Shown one piece after another: positions 42,505 through 49,267 of a stretch of DNA of 50,468 nucleotides. The position numbers and the translations under genes were made by a program. The notes beneath the pieces are model-generated. The model did no database searches. It saw only the letters and a program-made list of their open reading frames with translations, and had not been told where the DNA came from. Within the stretch, counting starts at the first letter, position 1. Every line of letters begins with the position of its first letter. The stretch is from Rheinheimera sp. (GTDB taxonomy: Bacteria; Pseudomonadota; Gammaproteobacteria; Enterobacterales; Alteromonadaceae): the NCBI GenBank assembly GCA_003543135.1, contig DPJG01000030.1, forward strand, positions 1 to 50,468, read 5' to 3'.

Positions 42505-42512
42505 CTGCCAGA

Positions 42513-42547
42513 AAACAGCGGGCTGAGTCAAAGTCCGCTGTTTTTTT
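42513..42547 (+). terminator. Intrinsic terminator after the penicillin-binding protein gene
   Basis: A 9-bp stem AAACAGCGG / CCGCTGTTT with a 13-base loop and a run of T to 42547. It separates the PBP gene from the borosin-like operon, so the latter must have its own promoter in 42548-42766. No clear -35/-10 pair is seen there. Confidence 0.85.
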
Positions 42548-42766: not shown

Positions 42767-43033
42767 ATGTCATTTATTCAGATGATTGAACAATTAGGTG
42801 CGAATGCCGCATTACAACAGTTAAATCAGGCTCAGCTGCAGGCGCTTTTTGCGGATAAGGATACAGAAACCCTGCATGCGCTGCTTAAGGGTGACATTGA
42901 CGGTTTAAGCGACTTGTTAAAAACGCCGGTGTACCGTTGTGTGCTGCAGGTTCCGCCAGAGCAGCAGGATGAACAGCCAGCTGAAGAAGATGAAAAATCC
43001 AAGCCGCAACAATCTGCGGTAAAGCTGCAATAA
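42767..43033 (+). CDS. Candidate split-borosin precursor peptide (88 aa)
   Basis: A small protein with AAGGA close before its ATG. Residues 1-55 form short helices (FIQMIEQLGANAALQQL, LQALFADKDTETLHALLKGD, LSDLLK), the size and pattern of the helical borosin-binding leader of Shewanella SonA, including a GD-x-x-x-L-x-x-L step. A short strand-like segment YRCVLQVPP (residues 56-64) follows, in the position where SonA is methylated on alternating hydrophobic residues, and then a disordered Glu/Gln/Pro/Lys tail. It is the first gene of an operon that ends with a SonM-like N-methyltransferase. The match to SonA is from memory of that family and weak in identity; context is the main support. Confidence 0.65.
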   Translation: MSFIQMIEQLGANAALQQLNQAQLQALFADKDTETLHALLKGDIDGLSDLLKTPVYRCVLQVPPEQQDEQPAEEDEKSKPQQSAVKLQ

Positions 43034-43043
43034 CCCACTTAGA

Positions 43044-44789
43044 ATGAACAACCGTCTTCTTAGTTTGATTCTGGTGTTACTGATGGTAACACCAGCGTTT
43101 GCCTCAACGCCTGCAGCCACACTGCTGGAACAGGCTGAACAAACCAAAACCACAGATCCTGCGGCTTTAAAATCCCTGTTACAACAGCTTGGGAAAATGC
43201 CGTTAGATGCCAATCAGCAACAGCAGTATGTTTTTCTGCAGGGTTTCCACAGCCAATATGTCGGTGAACACGACAAAGCGCAAAACTTGTATTTACAGGC
43301 ACTGAGCATTGGCGACTCTGTGGATATTGATTACAAAGCTTTGGTTTCGTTATCGAACCTGATGACGGTGAAGCAGAATATGACGGCGGCGTTTAGCTAC
43401 TTGTTTGAAGCCTTAGCGCTGGCTGACAAGGTGTCTGAACCGGCATTAAAGCCACTGGCCAAAATCAACGCTTTGGCTACTTATATGAGTCTGAAGCTGT
43501 ATCAGGAAACTCTGACTCTCAGTCAGGAATTACTCACAGCTGACATTCGTGGTCGTTATCATTGTGCGGCATTGTTTTATCGCGACTACAGCATGCAGGA
43601 ACTGGAACCAGCTAAAGTGAGTCTGGAAACGCTGCAAAGTAGTATTGATTATTGCCATAGCCAGAATGATGCATTAACAGGTTTGTTCGGTCAGGCACTG
43701 ATAGCCCGTTATTATTTGTATCACCAAGATTATCAACAGGCACAGCAAGTTCTGAATCAGCACCTCAGTGCAGTACAGAACATTGGTTTTGCCCATCTGT
43801 TAGGCCACTATTATGTGTTACTGAGCCGCGCTCAGCTTGCCCTGAATGACTATGCCGCAGCCAATCAGAGTCTGGAACAGCTTTTTGCCATTGAGCATAA
43901 GTTGTCCAGCAGCGAACCTATGGTTGAGGCTTATCTGTTAAAAGCACAGCTGGAAGAGGCTTCAGGCCGGGCGCAAAACGCACTGCGTTTTTATAAAGAC
44001 TATATGGAAGCAGACAAACTTTATAAAAACACCCTGTCGTTACAACAAACCTCCTACCATCTGGCAAAGAACGAAATTCTCAATAAAAATCAGCAGATTG
44101 CTTTACTGGAAAAAAACAACACCCTGCTTACCCTACAAAAAGATCTGGCTGATGTAGAAAACAGCAACAAACAGCTGCTGATTGCTCTGCTGGTCACTGT
44201 GCTGATTTTCCTGAGTTATTTTGCCTTTCGGGCTTTTCAGAATACCCGTCTGTATCGCAGCCTGGCGGAAAACGATAGTTTGGTCAGTATCAGTAACAGA
44301 TACCACTTCACCAAAAAAGTGTCAGCACTGCTTGAACGCAGTAAACATCAACAACAACAGGACGCTTTTATTATTTTTGATTTGGACTGGTTTAAGCAGG
44401 TGAATGACCAGTACGGCCATCTGACCGGAGACTGGATCCTGAAAACTGTGGTGGAACACTGCCGTCCTTTCATTCGTAATATCGATACCTTTGGCCGTAT
44501 TGGTGGTGAAGAATTTGCAGTCTTTTTACCGGCCTGTTCCGCAGACAAAGCTGCTTTGCTGGCTGAAATACTCAGAGATGTGATAGAAAAAATTGACTGC
44601 AGTGGCAGCGGCCATCCGATCAAAACCAGCGCAAGCTTTGGCGTGACCGCCACAGACCGTTCAGGTTATGAACTCAGACAATTGTTCCGGGATGCTGATA
44701 TTGCGTTATACCTGTCCAAAAACCAGGGGCGGAACAAAGTGACCTTATTTGAAGTGAAAGACAGCAAAAGCAGTCAGGCGCCATTGTGA
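43044..44789 (+). CDS. Diguanylate cyclase with TPR-like sensor domain
   Basis: A 581-aa protein. A signal peptide (cleaved near PAFAST) leads to a periplasmic all-helical TPR-like region (about 25-370), one membrane segment (about 379-398) and a cytoplasmic GGDEF domain. The active site is GGEEF at 487-491, and the inhibitory I-site RNID lies five residues before it, so it should make cyclic-di-GMP with product feedback. It starts ten bases after the 88-aa gene, and its stop overlaps the acetyltransferase start as GTGA. Placement inside the borosin-like operon suggests that its TPR region senses a product or peptide-related signal; this is inference. Confidence 0.9.
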   Translation: MNNRLLSLILVLLMVTPAFASTPAATLLEQAEQTKTTDPAALKSLLQQLGKMPLDANQQQQYVFLQGFHSQYVGEHDKAQNLYLQALSIGDSVDIDYKALVSLSNLMTVKQNMTAAFSYLFEALALADKVSEPALKPLAKINALATYMSLKLYQETLTLSQELLTADIRGRYHCAALFYRDYSMQELEPAKVSLETLQSSIDYCHSQNDALTGLFGQALIARYYLYHQDYQQAQQVLNQHLSAVQNIGFAHLLGHYYVLLSRAQLALNDYAAANQSLEQLFAIEHKLSSSEPMVEAYLLKAQLEEASGRAQNALRFYKDYMEADKLYKNTLSLQQTSYHLAKNEILNKNQQIALLEKNNTLLTLQKDLADVENSNKQLLIALLVTVLIFLSYFAFRAFQNTRLYRSLAENDSLVSISNRYHFTKKVSALLERSKHQQQQDAFIIFDLDWFKQVNDQYGHLTGDWILKTVVEHCRPFIRNIDTFGRIGGEEFAVFLPACSADKAALLAEILRDVIEKIDCSGSGHPIKTSASFGVTATDRSGYELRQLFRDADIALYLSKNQGRNKVTLFEVKDSKSSQAPL

Positions 44790-45421
44790 TAAAGCATGTT
44801 ATTCAAGCTGGTATCCCAAGTGCGCGCCTGACATTATCGACCATCACCGACGCCGAACTGTCCTTGTATCAGCGCCTGTATGGCGATAGCAGCACTATGC
44901 AGTTTATCGGCCCTTGTTACGATCAGGCGCAAAGTGCTGAGTTTTTCCGGCGCTGCCTGCAACAAAGCAAACATCCAACATCGCCCTGGTATTATTTTGC
45001 TATCCGGCTGCATCAGCAACAACAAGCCATTGGTTTTATCTCGTTGATCCCAACCCAATACCCAGCTGCACCTTTTGAACTGGGCATCATGTTAAGTGCG
45101 GAAGCCCGGGGTCAGGGTTATGCCGATGAAGCCCTGACGGCCTTGTTTTTACATTGTTTTACCCTGCTTGAGTTGCCCGCTTTGCTGGCGAGAGTAAACC
45201 CGGATAACAAAGGTGCCACTAAACATATCCGGCATTTTGGCTTTATTGCAGCGCCGGCAGAGATGCCTGCACAGCAAGGGCTGCAGAATTATTTGTTAGC
45301 AGCCAGTGCTGACAATATTCGTTATCTGAAGGAGCTGGCCACAGGTTTTGCCAGATTGCAGCAAAGTCAGACCCAAGCCGCTGTTGCGGCGGACAGTATT
45401 TATTTAAGGAACACCCCATAG
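44786..45421 (+). CDS. GNAT family N-acetyltransferase
   Basis: A 211-aa acetyl-CoA-dependent acetyltransferase of the RimJ/RimL-like class. Acetyl-CoA binding motif A is visible as LSAEARGQGYADEAL, followed by LLARVNPDNKGATKHIRHFGF, the usual beta-strand and loop. It starts with GTG overlapping the upstream stop (GTGA) and ends one base into the next start (TAGTG), so it is translationally coupled to both the cyclase and the N-methyltransferase. Its substrate could be the processed peptide, its N-terminus, or something unrelated. The last 40 residues extend beyond the typical fold. Confidence 0.88.
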   Translation: MIKHVIQAGIPSARLTLSTITDAELSLYQRLYGDSSTMQFIGPCYDQAQSAEFFRRCLQQSKHPTSPWYYFAIRLHQQQQAIGFISLIPTQYPAAPFELGIMLSAEARGQGYADEALTALFLHCFTLLELPALLARVNPDNKGATKHIRHFGFIAAPAEMPAQQGLQNYLLAASADNIRYLKELATGFARLQQSQTQAAVAADSIYLRNTP

Positions 45422-46272
45422 TGACAGGCAGCATCGTCATCGTCGGCACCGGTATTACTTTAGGCTCCCATATCAGCCCTTTATCGCGCAGTTATATTGA
45501 AAATGCCGATGTGGTATTTGCCGGGGTGGCTGATGGTATTACTGAGCTCTGGCTCAAAGAAATGCACCAGGATGTGCGCAGTTTTGCGCCGCTTTATGCA
45601 GAAGGCAAATCGCGCCATCAAACCTATCAGCAAATGATTGATTTAATGCTGGCTGAAGTTCGGCTTGGCAAAAAAGTGGTGGGGGCATTTTATGGTCACC
45701 CCGGTGTCTTTGCTTATGCACCACATAAAGTGATTGAACTGGCCAGGGCTGAAGGTTATGCCGCCCATATGGAGCCTGGGATCAGCGCCGCAGACTGTTT
45801 ACATGCTGAACTTGGCATAGACCCGGGCAAAGTGGGTTGCCAGTATTTTGAAACCAGCCAGTATATGTTTTATAAGCGTTCTATAGACCCAACGGCGTAT
45901 TTAGTGCTGTGGCAGGTGGGTATTGCCGGAGATAAAAGCATGGCCCGTTTTGCCACAGGCGTCGCTTATCGGGAAGTGCTTGTCGAGTTATTGACGCAGC
46001 ATTACCCGCTCAATCACGAAGTGATGTTGTATGAAGCGCCCAGCCTACCCTTCCAGCAAGCCCGTATCGACAAACTGCCGTTATCGGCGCTGCCACAGGC
46101 ACAAATGAACTTAAAAACCACGCTGGTAGTGCCGCCTGGCAAGGCTCTAATAAAAAACCAGGCGGTGCTGGATAAACTGGCGGTTATCCGCGCAGCTGAG
46201 CAGCAACCGGCGCTTAGCCACACGGCAACAGCAGAGCCGCCGGAAGGCGAATATCGGCTGGATGAGCTCTAA
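45421..46272 (+). CDS. Borosin-type peptide backbone alpha-N-methyltransferase (SonM-like)
   Basis: A 283-aa tetrapyrrole-methylase-fold SAM enzyme. It has VGTGI at the N-terminus, FYGHPGVFA near 90-98, MEPGISAADCLHAELGIDPG, and LWQVGIAGD. The catalytic pattern of backbone N-methyltransferases of the OphMA/SonM family is present as Tyr59, Arg65 and Tyr69, with the same 6 and 4 residue spacing as OphMA Tyr66/Arg72/Tyr76. No CobA/SUMT partner genes are nearby, so a porphyrin role is unlikely. In split borosins the enzyme methylates backbone amides of a separate precursor; the candidate is 42767-43033. Start is GTG at 45421 with AAGGA ten bases before it. Confidence 0.88.
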   Translation: MTGSIVIVGTGITLGSHISPLSRSYIENADVVFAGVADGITELWLKEMHQDVRSFAPLYAEGKSRHQTYQQMIDLMLAEVRLGKKVVGAFYGHPGVFAYAPHKVIELARAEGYAAHMEPGISAADCLHAELGIDPGKVGCQYFETSQYMFYKRSIDPTAYLVLWQVGIAGDKSMARFATGVAYREVLVELLTQHYPLNHEVMLYEAPSLPFQQARIDKLPLSALPQAQMNLKTTLVVPPGKALIKNQAVLDKLAVIRAAEQQPALSHTATAEPPEGEYRLDEL

Positions 46273-46564: not shown

Positions 46565-49267
46565 ATGCCAACAACACAAGCCTTAGCACCCGAAGCAGCG
46601 GACTCAGTACCTGCCAGCTTACTGAAAATACTGTTGCTGGCGCTCTCTTATGTCATCAGCGGACAGTTAGCTATGCTGCTGGCGGCGCCACCTGGGTATG
46701 TCAGCGCTATTTTTCCACCTGTTGGTATTTCGCTGGCCGCAGTGTTGATGTGGGGTTATCCCATGTTGTTTGGGGTATTTTTCGGCTCCACTTTACTGAA
46801 CCTCAGCATCAGCCTTGGCAGTCTTTCAGCCCTTGCCACGACACCACTGAGCGCTGCGCAGCTGCTGGTGCCCTGCAGTATTGCGCTGGGCACCACATTG
46901 CAGTGTTGTTGCGCCAGCTGGGCTATTAAACGCTGGATAGGTTTCCCTAACCCACTGACCGACGATAAACAAATTTTCTGGTTGTTAGTTATAGGCGGGC
47001 CACTGTCCTGCCTGCTAAGTGCCAGCGCCGGTATTGCGGTGTTGTATCAGCATCAGATCATCAGCGCTTCGCAGCTGCTGTTTAGCTGGTGGAGCTGGTG
47101 GGTGGGCGACAGCATTGGTGTACTAATAGCCACTCCTCTAATGTTTATTGTTTTTGCCAAACCACGTGACATCTGGCGCAGCCGTATCGCCAGTGTTGGC
47201 CTGCCGTTATTGATCAGCTGCGCCCTGATGGTCGTGCTGTTTTTCCGCACTATTGAAGATGAACAATCCCAGTTGCAACAAAGATTTCATGAACAGGCCA
47301 AATTAATGGCGCAAAGTATTCAATCGCGTCTGGTGCTCTACACCAGTTCAGTGATGCCGATTGAGCGTTTTTTTGCCGCCTCTGGTGAAGTAACAGCAAC
47401 AGACTTTGCTATTTTTGTCAGCGCCACCGCCCGCAATCACCCCGGCATTCGCGCGCTGAGCTGGAACCCCAAAATAACGTCGGCCGAACGCCCCTGGTTT
47501 GAAGCCAAACTGCAGGCCGAAGTGCCAGGACAGCAGCAAATTACCGAGCGCGGCAGCAATAACCAGCTGCTTGGCGCAGCGCCCAGGCCCACTTATTTTC
47601 CCATCTACTTTATTGAACCCAAAGCAGATAACCTGACCGCCATTGGTTATGACGTGGCCTCTGAGCCTGTGCGGCAAAAAGCAATGCAAAGCGCCAGCGA
47701 TAGCGGCCACGCTACCTTGACCGCCCCACTGCAGCTGGTGCAGGACAATGAGCAGCAGATTGGCATGTTGCTGTTTTACCCGGTATTTCAAACTGCACAA
47801 TGGCCCGCCACTGCGTCAGAGCGCCAGCAACTATTGCGGGGTTATGTGGTGGCCGTGCTGCATATGACAGCTGTGATCCAATCTGCGCTTGCTGCTTATC
47901 CAGAGCACAGTTTTCAGCTGGTGGTCAATGACATCAGTGACGGTACAGCACAACCGCTCTACCACAAACAACAATCCGCTACACCGGCTTATGCCAGGTC
48001 GCTTATCTGGCAACAAGAGTTCGACCTGGCCGGCCGGCGTTTTAGCATGCATATAGCGCCCAGTGACTGGTTTTTAAAATCACAAAGCAGTTTACAGCCC
48101 TGGGCCATTCTGACCGGTGGTTTATTGTTATGTGGCCTGCTGGGTGGTTTTTTATTGTCGGTGACAGGCCGAGCCGAGCAGGTGCGCCGTCAGGTCAAAC
48201 TGCGCACGCTGGAGCTCACCGGCATTTTAAATAACGCCGCTGAGGCTATTTTAATTTTTAACTCAGACGGCACTATAGAGCGCGCCAATATTGCCGCCCA
48301 GCAGCTGTTTGGTTACAACAACAGCCAGTTATTAAAGTTACAAATTGCCGCTTTATTGCCACAACTGCAGCTCAACAACGAAGCGGAGTTAACCAAAGCT
48401 CAGGGCCGCGCTATTGAAGCTGTGGGCAACAGTGCCGCCGGTGTCACGCTGCAGCTGGAAATTAGCCTGAGCAGCTACAGCCTGCCAGGCCACACCTGGT
48501 TTATTTGTCTGCTGCACGATATCAGCGAACGCAAAAAAATAGCCCGGCTAAAGAGTGAATTTGTCGCAACCGTCAGCCATGAATTACGCACTCCGCTCAC
48601 CTCAATTAAAGGTGCGCTGGATCTGGTGAACGCCGGCGTGTTAGGCACCTTACCCGAAGCGGCCGGCAATATGCTGCGCCTGGCTGGCAAAAACACCGAG
48701 CGGCTGGAGCTTTTGGTGAACGATATTCTGGATATAGAAAAACTGGAGCTGGCCGAAGCCAGTCTGGTGCTGAGCCCGCTAAACCTTGCCGAACAGCTGC
48801 AGCTGGCACTACAACAAAACCAGAGTTACGCCACCAGCTATGCCGTTACCCTGTGCCTGGATATGGAGCAGCTGCCGGCCACAACCAGAGTGATGGCCCA
48901 TAACCAGCGTTTGCAGCAGGTGTTCAGTAACCTGATTAGCAACGCGGTAAAATTCTCGCCAGCGCAAAGCCAGGTGCAAATCAAAGCAAGACTACAAGGC
49001 CAGCAGGCAATTGTCAGCTTCAGCGATCAGGGCCCTGGTATTGCCGAGGAATTTCGCAGCCGGATTTTCCAAAAATTCGCCCAGGCTGACGGCTCAGACA
49101 CCCGCCAACGCGGCGGCACCGGCCTTGGCCTCAGTATTTGCAAAGCGCTGATGGAAAAAATGCACGGCAGCATTGGTTTTGACAGCATTGAAGGCAAAGG
49201 CAGCACCTTTTTTATTATATTGCCATTGGTGGATGAGGAGCAGAGCGCCCCAACGACTGATGGTTAG
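46565..49267 (+). CDS. MASE1-CHASE-PAS hybrid-type sensor histidine kinase
   Basis: A 900-aa inner-membrane sensor kinase. An N-terminal MASE1 domain of about eight membrane segments (about 20-225; GYVSAIFPPVGISLAAVL) is followed by a CHASE domain (about 260-430), a further membrane segment near 510-535, a PAS domain (ILNNAAEAILIFNSDG), and HisKA with His672 in SHELRTP. The HATPase_c domain is complete: NLISNAVKF, SDQGPGIA and GTGLGLS. No receiver domain and no neighbouring response regulator gene are seen. The signal is unknown. It has its own region of about 290 bp upstream and lies after the borosin-like operon. Confidence 0.93.
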   Translation: MPTTQALAPEAADSVPASLLKILLLALSYVISGQLAMLLAAPPGYVSAIFPPVGISLAAVLMWGYPMLFGVFFGSTLLNLSISLGSLSALATTPLSAAQLLVPCSIALGTTLQCCCASWAIKRWIGFPNPLTDDKQIFWLLVIGGPLSCLLSASAGIAVLYQHQIISASQLLFSWWSWWVGDSIGVLIATPLMFIVFAKPRDIWRSRIASVGLPLLISCALMVVLFFRTIEDEQSQLQQRFHEQAKLMAQSIQSRLVLYTSSVMPIERFFAASGEVTATDFAIFVSATARNHPGIRALSWNPKITSAERPWFEAKLQAEVPGQQQITERGSNNQLLGAAPRPTYFPIYFIEPKADNLTAIGYDVASEPVRQKAMQSASDSGHATLTAPLQLVQDNEQQIGMLLFYPVFQTAQWPATASERQQLLRGYVVAVLHMTAVIQSALAAYPEHSFQLVVNDISDGTAQPLYHKQQSATPAYARSLIWQQEFDLAGRRFSMHIAPSDWFLKSQSSLQPWAILTGGLLLCGLLGGFLLSVTGRAEQVRRQVKLRTLELTGILNNAAEAILIFNSDGTIERANIAAQQLFGYNNSQLLKLQIAALLPQLQLNNEAELTKAQGRAIEAVGNSAAGVTLQLEISLSSYSLPGHTWFICLLHDISERKKIARLKSEFVATVSHELRTPLTSIKGALDLVNAGVLGTLPEAAGNMLRLAGKNTERLELLVNDILDIEKLELAEASLVLSPLNLAEQLQLALQQNQSYATSYAVTLCLDMEQLPATTRVMAHNQRLQQVFSNLISNAVKFSPAQSQVQIKARLQGQQAIVSFSDQGPGIAEEFRSRIFQKFAQADGSDTRQRGGTGLGLSICKALMEKMHGSIGFDSIEGKGSTFFIILPLVDEEQSAPTTDG

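Follow-up and report, generated by a model that had tools for sequence, protein, structure and literature searches.

A split-borosin operon of Rheinheimera whose peptide core may be the ligand of the adjacent diguanylate cyclase

Introduction

What is a split borosin made for, when the gene of its precursor stands directly in front of that of a sensory diguanylate cyclase? The question is raised by a four-gene operon in a stretch of 50,468 nucleotides from Rheinheimera sp. (GenBank assembly GCA_003543135.1, contig DPJG01000030.1), hereafter the window, which encodes in this order a precursor peptide, a cyclase joining a tetratricopeptide repeat (TPR) sensor to a GGDEF domain, a GNAT acetyltransferase and a methyltransferase similar to SonM of Shewanella oneidensis MR-1. 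The borosin papers cited here (PMC8429565; PMC11395268) do not, in their available text, assign a biological role to bacterial borosins. Our data point to one concrete role that lends itself to tests in a laboratory model strain, in which the borosin core would be the specific ligand of the adjacent receptor that makes cyclic di-GMP (c-di-GMP), in the manner of a pheromone, and we put the probability of this reading at roughly 65%. It is carried by the finding that core and sensor vary in step with each other and out of step with the rest of the locus. Judging from sequence comparison, this co-diversification is new here; a literature search returned no report of it or of a borosin as cyclase ligand, going by titles and the beginnings of abstracts among the matches listed, and an earlier description is possible.

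The split-borosin operon

An open reading frame check recovered all four frames that the initial annotation had placed here, with the coordinates below and gaps of 10, -4 and -1 bp.

42767..43033 (stop included), + strand: precursor peptide, 88 aa (open reading frame; the family profile finds SonA; five predicted helices)
42767..42925, + strand: leader, residues 1-53, SonA-like borosin-binding domain (cut from the alignment with SonA-type peptides)
42926..43030, + strand: core and acidic tail, residues 54-88, predicted N-methylation region (alignment; methylation by homology)
43044..44789, + strand: predicted TPR-GGDEF diguanylate cyclase, 581 aa (Pfam GGDEF 9.5e-38, weak TPR matches; AlphaFold2 mean predicted local distance difference test, pLDDT, 91)
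43113..44003, + strand: TPR sensor, about residues 24-320, predicted periplasmic, with Cys174 and Cys204 (hydrophobic segments; Cys pair invariant)
44271..44738, + strand: GGDEF domain, residues 410-565, with GGEEF at 487-491 and I-site R478-x2-D481 (Pfam, alignment)
44786..45421, + strand: GNAT acetyltransferase, 211 aa (Pfam Acetyltransf_3, 6.4e-24)
45421..46272, + strand: SonM-like alpha-N-methyltransferase, 283 aa (SonM 2.6e-79; catalytic residues aligned)

The 283-aa enzyme is 50% identical to SonM, its best match in a PDB search (2.6e-79, 269.8 bits), with fungal OphMA-type enzymes following at about 145-164 bits. The residues Y58, R67, Y71, Y93, F99 and W166 of SonM, which are discussed in PMC8429565, align with Y59, R65, Y69, Y91, F97 and W164 of the window enzyme. 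The Tyr-x5-Arg-x3-Tyr pattern to which the initial annotation had drawn attention is real in this enzyme; SonM itself, however, reads Tyr-x8-Arg-x3-Tyr. The alignments support its assignment as a separate SonM-type alpha-N-methyltransferase of the split-borosin (type IV-like) kind.

As a single query, the 88-aa protein matched nothing convincing in Pfam (best 0.029) or the PDB (best 0.72). The small proteins encoded near the methyltransferase form one family that includes it, and iterating a profile recovered such a protein in 64 of 74 loci; the expectation that it is kept beside the enzyme held in this gene-neighbourhood comparison. A profile of 41 members, from which SonA-like members were left out, had SonA chains as its seven top PDB matches (1.5e-6 to 7.5e-6, with six aligned in register from profile position 1), the next match coming at 0.45, which bears out the SonA-like leader proposed earlier. 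In the AlphaFold2 model of the peptide (mean pLDDT 81) five helices reach as far as residue 51, followed by a tail of low confidence, and when the model was searched with Foldseek, 14 of 22 matches including the 13 best were SonA chains, though weakly, all at E of at least 0.55. Other families were considered and rejected: among 60 family members Pfam found LigA in 19 (best 2.2e-6), Nif11 in 6 (best 0.024) and each remaining family in one or two only. A separate precursor with a SonA-type borosin-binding leader, and with it membership of the split borosins, is supported by these profiles. SonM methylates the core of SonA (PMC8429565), and the window peptide is probably methylated on its backbone likewise.

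The number of precursor genes varies among the loci, which are numbered here with the prefix L. Rheinheimera sp. SA_1 (L033:2006-3585) has three in tandem, with differing cores, followed by one TPR-GGDEF gene, and L105, L107, L108 and L114 have a second one beyond the methyltransferase, on the side away from the TPR-GGDEF gene. An apparent GNAT-peptide fusion in L058 and L060, where the frame is open throughout, was not counted as such because the peptide ATG has a Shine-Dalgarno-like site in front of it.

The cyclase and its sensor

From a hydrophobic N-terminus the 581-aa protein runs through a TPR superhelix and a long helix that includes a transmembrane segment to a GGDEF domain, its hydrophobic segments lying at residues 5 and 377. 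It is predicted to be a diguanylate cyclase from its intact GG(D/E)EF motif, here GGEEF, and this motif recurs in 95 of 105 proteins whose genes are linked in the same way to a precursor (AGEEF in 1, not found in 9), with the I-site spacing kept in 86. The N-terminal region of the window protein is matched by 103 of the 105, and 76 have both the N-terminal and the pre-GGDEF hydrophobic segment. All 54 aligned proteins have C174 and C204 of the sensor, as do 11 of 11 stand-alone sensors from genomes whose genus was inferred to be Kangiella; five of these sensors were inspected and start with a hydrophobic segment, and their length implies that there is no GGDEF domain. The Cys pair, taken with the hydrophobic N-terminus and the transmembrane segment, fits a periplasmic sensor, as we predict this domain to be. 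Searched in four genomes, the window sensor region had in each a single homologue, the cluster gene.

Other arrangements of the sensor family were seen. In L200, L201 and L202 (inferred Kangiella) a second methyltransferase cluster carries 2-4 tandem stand-alone TPR sensors with the Cys pair and without GGDEF, and the peptide may therefore have outputs besides c-di-GMP. L205, L206, L207, L208 and L209 hold TPR-GGDEF genes with no precursor or methyltransferase detected in the fetched stretch and thus resemble solo receptors; in L080, L165 and L166 the TPR-GGDEF gene is broken into two or more open reading frames, whether genuinely or by sequencing error. Many genomes of one genus (g38 of family f21) gave one weak sensor-profile match each (1e-9 to 1e-17) with no methyltransferase match listed, and these are possibly distant TPR relatives outside borosin clusters.

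Conservation of the gene pair

As a query, the window methyltransferase matched 118 out of 394 genomes in the order at E 0.001, some weakly, and 21 of the 22 genomes of the window's genus, while SonM matched 101 of 117 genomes inferred to be Shewanella. Names given to these genomes as MR-1, Shewanella and Kangiella are inferred, in part through SonM identity, and the locus sample is non-random, combining 43 matches of one scan, chosen matches of the order and genus, and loci picked for their sensor. Among 159 distinct methyltransferase genes with flanks, 139 have the precursor gene immediately ahead of a TPR-GGDEF gene in the same orientation (median gap 6 nt; 126 units within -60 to 60 nt), which upholds the c-di-GMP link suggested in the initial annotation. 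Its contrast with the Shewanella arrangement proved wrong: the genome that matches SonM at 100% identity (taken to be MR-1; L078) has sonM, sonA (71 aa) and then, at a gap of 0, a 596-aa TPR-GGDEF gene, and the cyclase is therefore part of the classical son locus too. What is peculiar to a few Rheinheimera is the order, with GGDEF and GNAT genes sited between precursor and enzyme.

Linked and unlinked labels cluster on the methyltransferase tree (9 changes, against 18 for shuffled labels). Across 388 genomes, sensor and methyltransferase occurred together in 81, the methyltransferase alone in 12, the sensor alone in 6 and neither in 289, at cut-offs (1e-40 and 1e-20 for methyltransferase and sensor, respectively) picked after the tables had been seen, and with genomes G391 and G393 left out. 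Five more distant methyltransferase homologues (L151, L152, L153, L154 and L157) stand without a TPR-GGDEF neighbour, L152 and L157 with a weak precursor-like open reading frame.

Co-diversification of core and sensor

Between MR-1 and its sister L079 the methyltransferase is 99% identical, the leader 96% and the GGDEF domain 90%, as against 43% for the core and 49% for the sensor. At the DNA level MR-1 and L160 are about 95% identical across methyltransferase and leader, about 50% at the core and 99% again some 1 kb later, and the same divergent block separates L110 from L114 in Rheinheimera, where the leader is 78% identical. Receptor protein identity in 20-residue bins is 20-60% over residues 1-320 and 90-100% from residue 321 onward. 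As a control, 14 further orthologous GGDEF pairs of the MR-1 and L160 genomes were compared, and all 14 have N-terminal parts 95-100% identical, against 50% for the borosin-linked pair with its GGDEF domain at 96%; this control drew on 15 of 54 MR-1 matches, those within loci, with long N-terminal parts clipped at the locus end and L240 lacking an orthologue among the fetched loci. Elsewhere the divergence is broader. L033 and L034 share 98% of the methyltransferase, 86% of the GGDEF domain and 87% of the GNAT protein, with leader, sensor and core at 49%, 55% and 56%. Between the window and Rheinheimera sp. 4Y26 (L031), the closest named relative in the genome scan (methyltransferase 91% identical there), the pairwise values are 92% for the methyltransferase, 67% for the GGDEF domain, 29% for the core and 28% for the sensor, and the divergence extends to leader (21%) and GNAT (32%), which are equally divergent.

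Core and sensor each come in two types in the MR-1 clade (SonM identity of at least 89%), and they match in all 18 loci; 10 of these are of type A and 8 of type B, the core types being assigned by a core-letter pattern that was broadened to include L161. For 14 of these loci the partial Mantel correlation of core and sensor, given methyltransferase, GGDEF domain and leader, was 0.81 (p 0.0005), with no tracking of the sensor by the leader (0.11, p 0.26); the four loci omitted here (L080, L162, L165 and L166) were then checked singly and agree. The correlation was 0.72 (p 0.0002) in 12 Rheinheimera loci and 0.55 (p 0.04) in the five loci of the window's own group, these two sets, and the Dyella, nine-locus Shewanella and other four-locus sets mentioned below, being drawn from the 96 of 105 linked units whose GGDEF protein exceeds 520 aa and has a G(G/S)EEF motif. 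The sensor tree splits core types A and B at 100/100. On the methyltransferase and GGDEF-domain trees, by comparison, the core types require 5 changes, the same as shuffled labels (the methyltransferase bootstrap being unconverged), and approximately unbiased tests on DNA reject a single type-A clade for both (0.0005 and 7e-85, respectively). Within the MR-1 clade, the putative ligand and the sensor are thus found in matching types that have been exchanged jointly, at odds with the history of the remaining locus.

In two loci of this clade (L162:6002-6283 and L165:2043-2303) an additional sonA-like gene encodes the other core type; it lies farther from the sensor and has an altered 3' end. Such copies are possibly remnants of cassette displacement.

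Proposed mechanism and alternative explanations

By homology to SonM and SonA, the methyltransferase would dock the precursor leader and N-methylate the core backbone. The core would then be released, get to the periplasm and bind the TPR superhelix, and binding would alter c-di-GMP synthesis through the membrane-spanning helix. Because the 3' part of the precursor gene codes for the core and the 5' part of the following gene for the sensor, a single recombination event can swap the putative ligand and receptor jointly, and such exchanges are seen among the loci. A more far-reaching proposal, which we hold to be somewhat better than an even bet, is that the split borosins of gammaproteobacteria, with that of S. 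oneidensis among them, act as peptide pheromones N-methylated on the backbone and come in discrete pherotypes, each read by the adjacent TPR-cyclase sensor, the cassette being exchanged between species as a block. If true, this would be Gram-negative peptide signalling built on backbone N-methylation, and natural matched and mismatched core/sensor pairs would be at hand for swap tests.

A number of results weigh against a core that is read by the sensor. Four Dyella loci show no core-sensor correlation, two more four-locus sets none that is significant, and in nine Shewanella loci a correlation of 0.45 (p 0.005) drops to -0.05 (p 0.61) when the leader is taken into account; in 40 Shewanella loci the leader-sensor value of 0.75 exceeds the core-sensor value of 0.18 (p 0.002). 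Well-supported independent swaps number just 3 on the methyltransferase tree and 4 on the GGDEF-domain tree; all agree in direction and are too few for significance (sign test 0.25 and 0.125). The precursor/TPR-GGDEF adjacency is absent for 20 of the 159 methyltransferase genes, including L058 and L060, distant enzymes without GGDEF (such as L151-L154 and L157), L165 with its broken GGDEF gene and L200-L202 with stand-alone sensors. General TPR proteins (APPBP2 and APC/C subunits) match the sensor as well as the peptide receptor Rap does, and no exporter or protease was identified, no search having been aimed at either.

Physical linkage is the main rival to the ligand reading. Core and sensor adjoin on the DNA, and linkage alone could therefore keep them together: the sensor might diversify for another cause, such as another ligand or escape from phage or toxin, and carry along a core that is not its ligand. 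The scarcity of independent swaps and the tracking of the sensor by the leader in wider sets speak for this hitch-hiking. It is nevertheless unlikely in our view, since in two genera the divergent block leaves out the leader and starts within the precursor gene, at the core, since in L162 and L165 it is the precursor copy adjoining the sensor that has the matching core type, and since sensor family and methyltransferase co-occur across genomes.

A classical natural-product cluster, with a secreted bioactive peptide and a cyclase that only regulates its production or signals export or immunity, is a less probable explanation still. Fungal borosins are bioactive (PMC8429565) and co-regulation is common among cluster genes; a sporadic antibiotic cluster, however, would hardly be near-universal in two genera, as the methyltransferase counts for Rheinheimera and Shewanella indicate. 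No fixed resistance or transporter partner was noticed, in flanking genes that were not systematically clustered, and the rival by itself leaves the matched core and sensor types unexplained.

A further rival, in which the small protein regulates methyltransferase or cyclase in the cytoplasm and is never matured to a free peptide, we consider highly improbable: although no signal sequence is evident by eye and in wider sets leader and sensor vary together, the core of SonA is methylated by SonM (PMC8429565), and the sensor looks periplasmic by its hydrophobic segments and invariant Cys pair. Finally, a CobA/SUMT-type corrinoid or porphyrin methylase in place of the SonM-like enzyme, which would share its Pfam fold family (TP_methylase, 1.2e-20), deserves next to no credence, given corrinoid methylases at 0.14 or worse in the PDB search that SonM led and NCBIfam corrinoid models all scoring far under their cut-offs, and the initial annotation was right to prefer SonM.

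The GNAT gene and flanking features

The initial annotation had also envisaged an acetylation step. This step is unsupported, as GNAT relatives occur close to the enzyme in 54 of 138 linked loci and in none of the 13 SonM-type loci L078-L090. A promoter scan gave 4 sites, against 5.0 expected by chance. A gene for a MASE1-CHASE-PAS histidine kinase (46565-49267) lies directly downstream of the operon, and one further feature precedes it.

42510..42546, + strand: terminator-like hairpin between the upstream gene and the operon (15-pair stem, T tail; consensus match)

Comparison with known systems

The window operon resembles the type IV split borosin SonM/SonA of S. oneidensis MR-1 in its separate methyltransferase and precursor, its borosin-binding leader and its catalytic residues (PMC8429565), and, as found in this analysis, in the TPR-GGDEF gene that directly follows sonA. 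It differs in gene order and in having a GNAT gene, and its core is longer than that of SonA, with Cys, PP and an acidic tail. GGDEF is named among borosin architectures in the Figure 1 legend of a genome-mining paper (PMC11395268), with which the window operon has the architecture alone in common; the function of the GGDEF protein is not described in the available text. Two diguanylate cyclases of Vibrio parahaemolyticus with predicted periplasmic TPR domains (PMC12282931) share the plan of TPR sensor and GGDEF domain and are likened to the window protein by that plan alone; unlike it, they are named, in the text at hand, without a borosin precursor, methyltransferase or ligand. By analogy, the proposed pair may further be set beside the Rap and NprR pheromone receptors of Bacillus and its phages, in which a TPR superhelix likewise reads a short peptide in matched pairs. 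Rap and NprR are cytoplasmic and require import of the peptide. The window TPR domain, at 7-11% identity to them, differs in being predicted periplasmic and fused to a cyclase.

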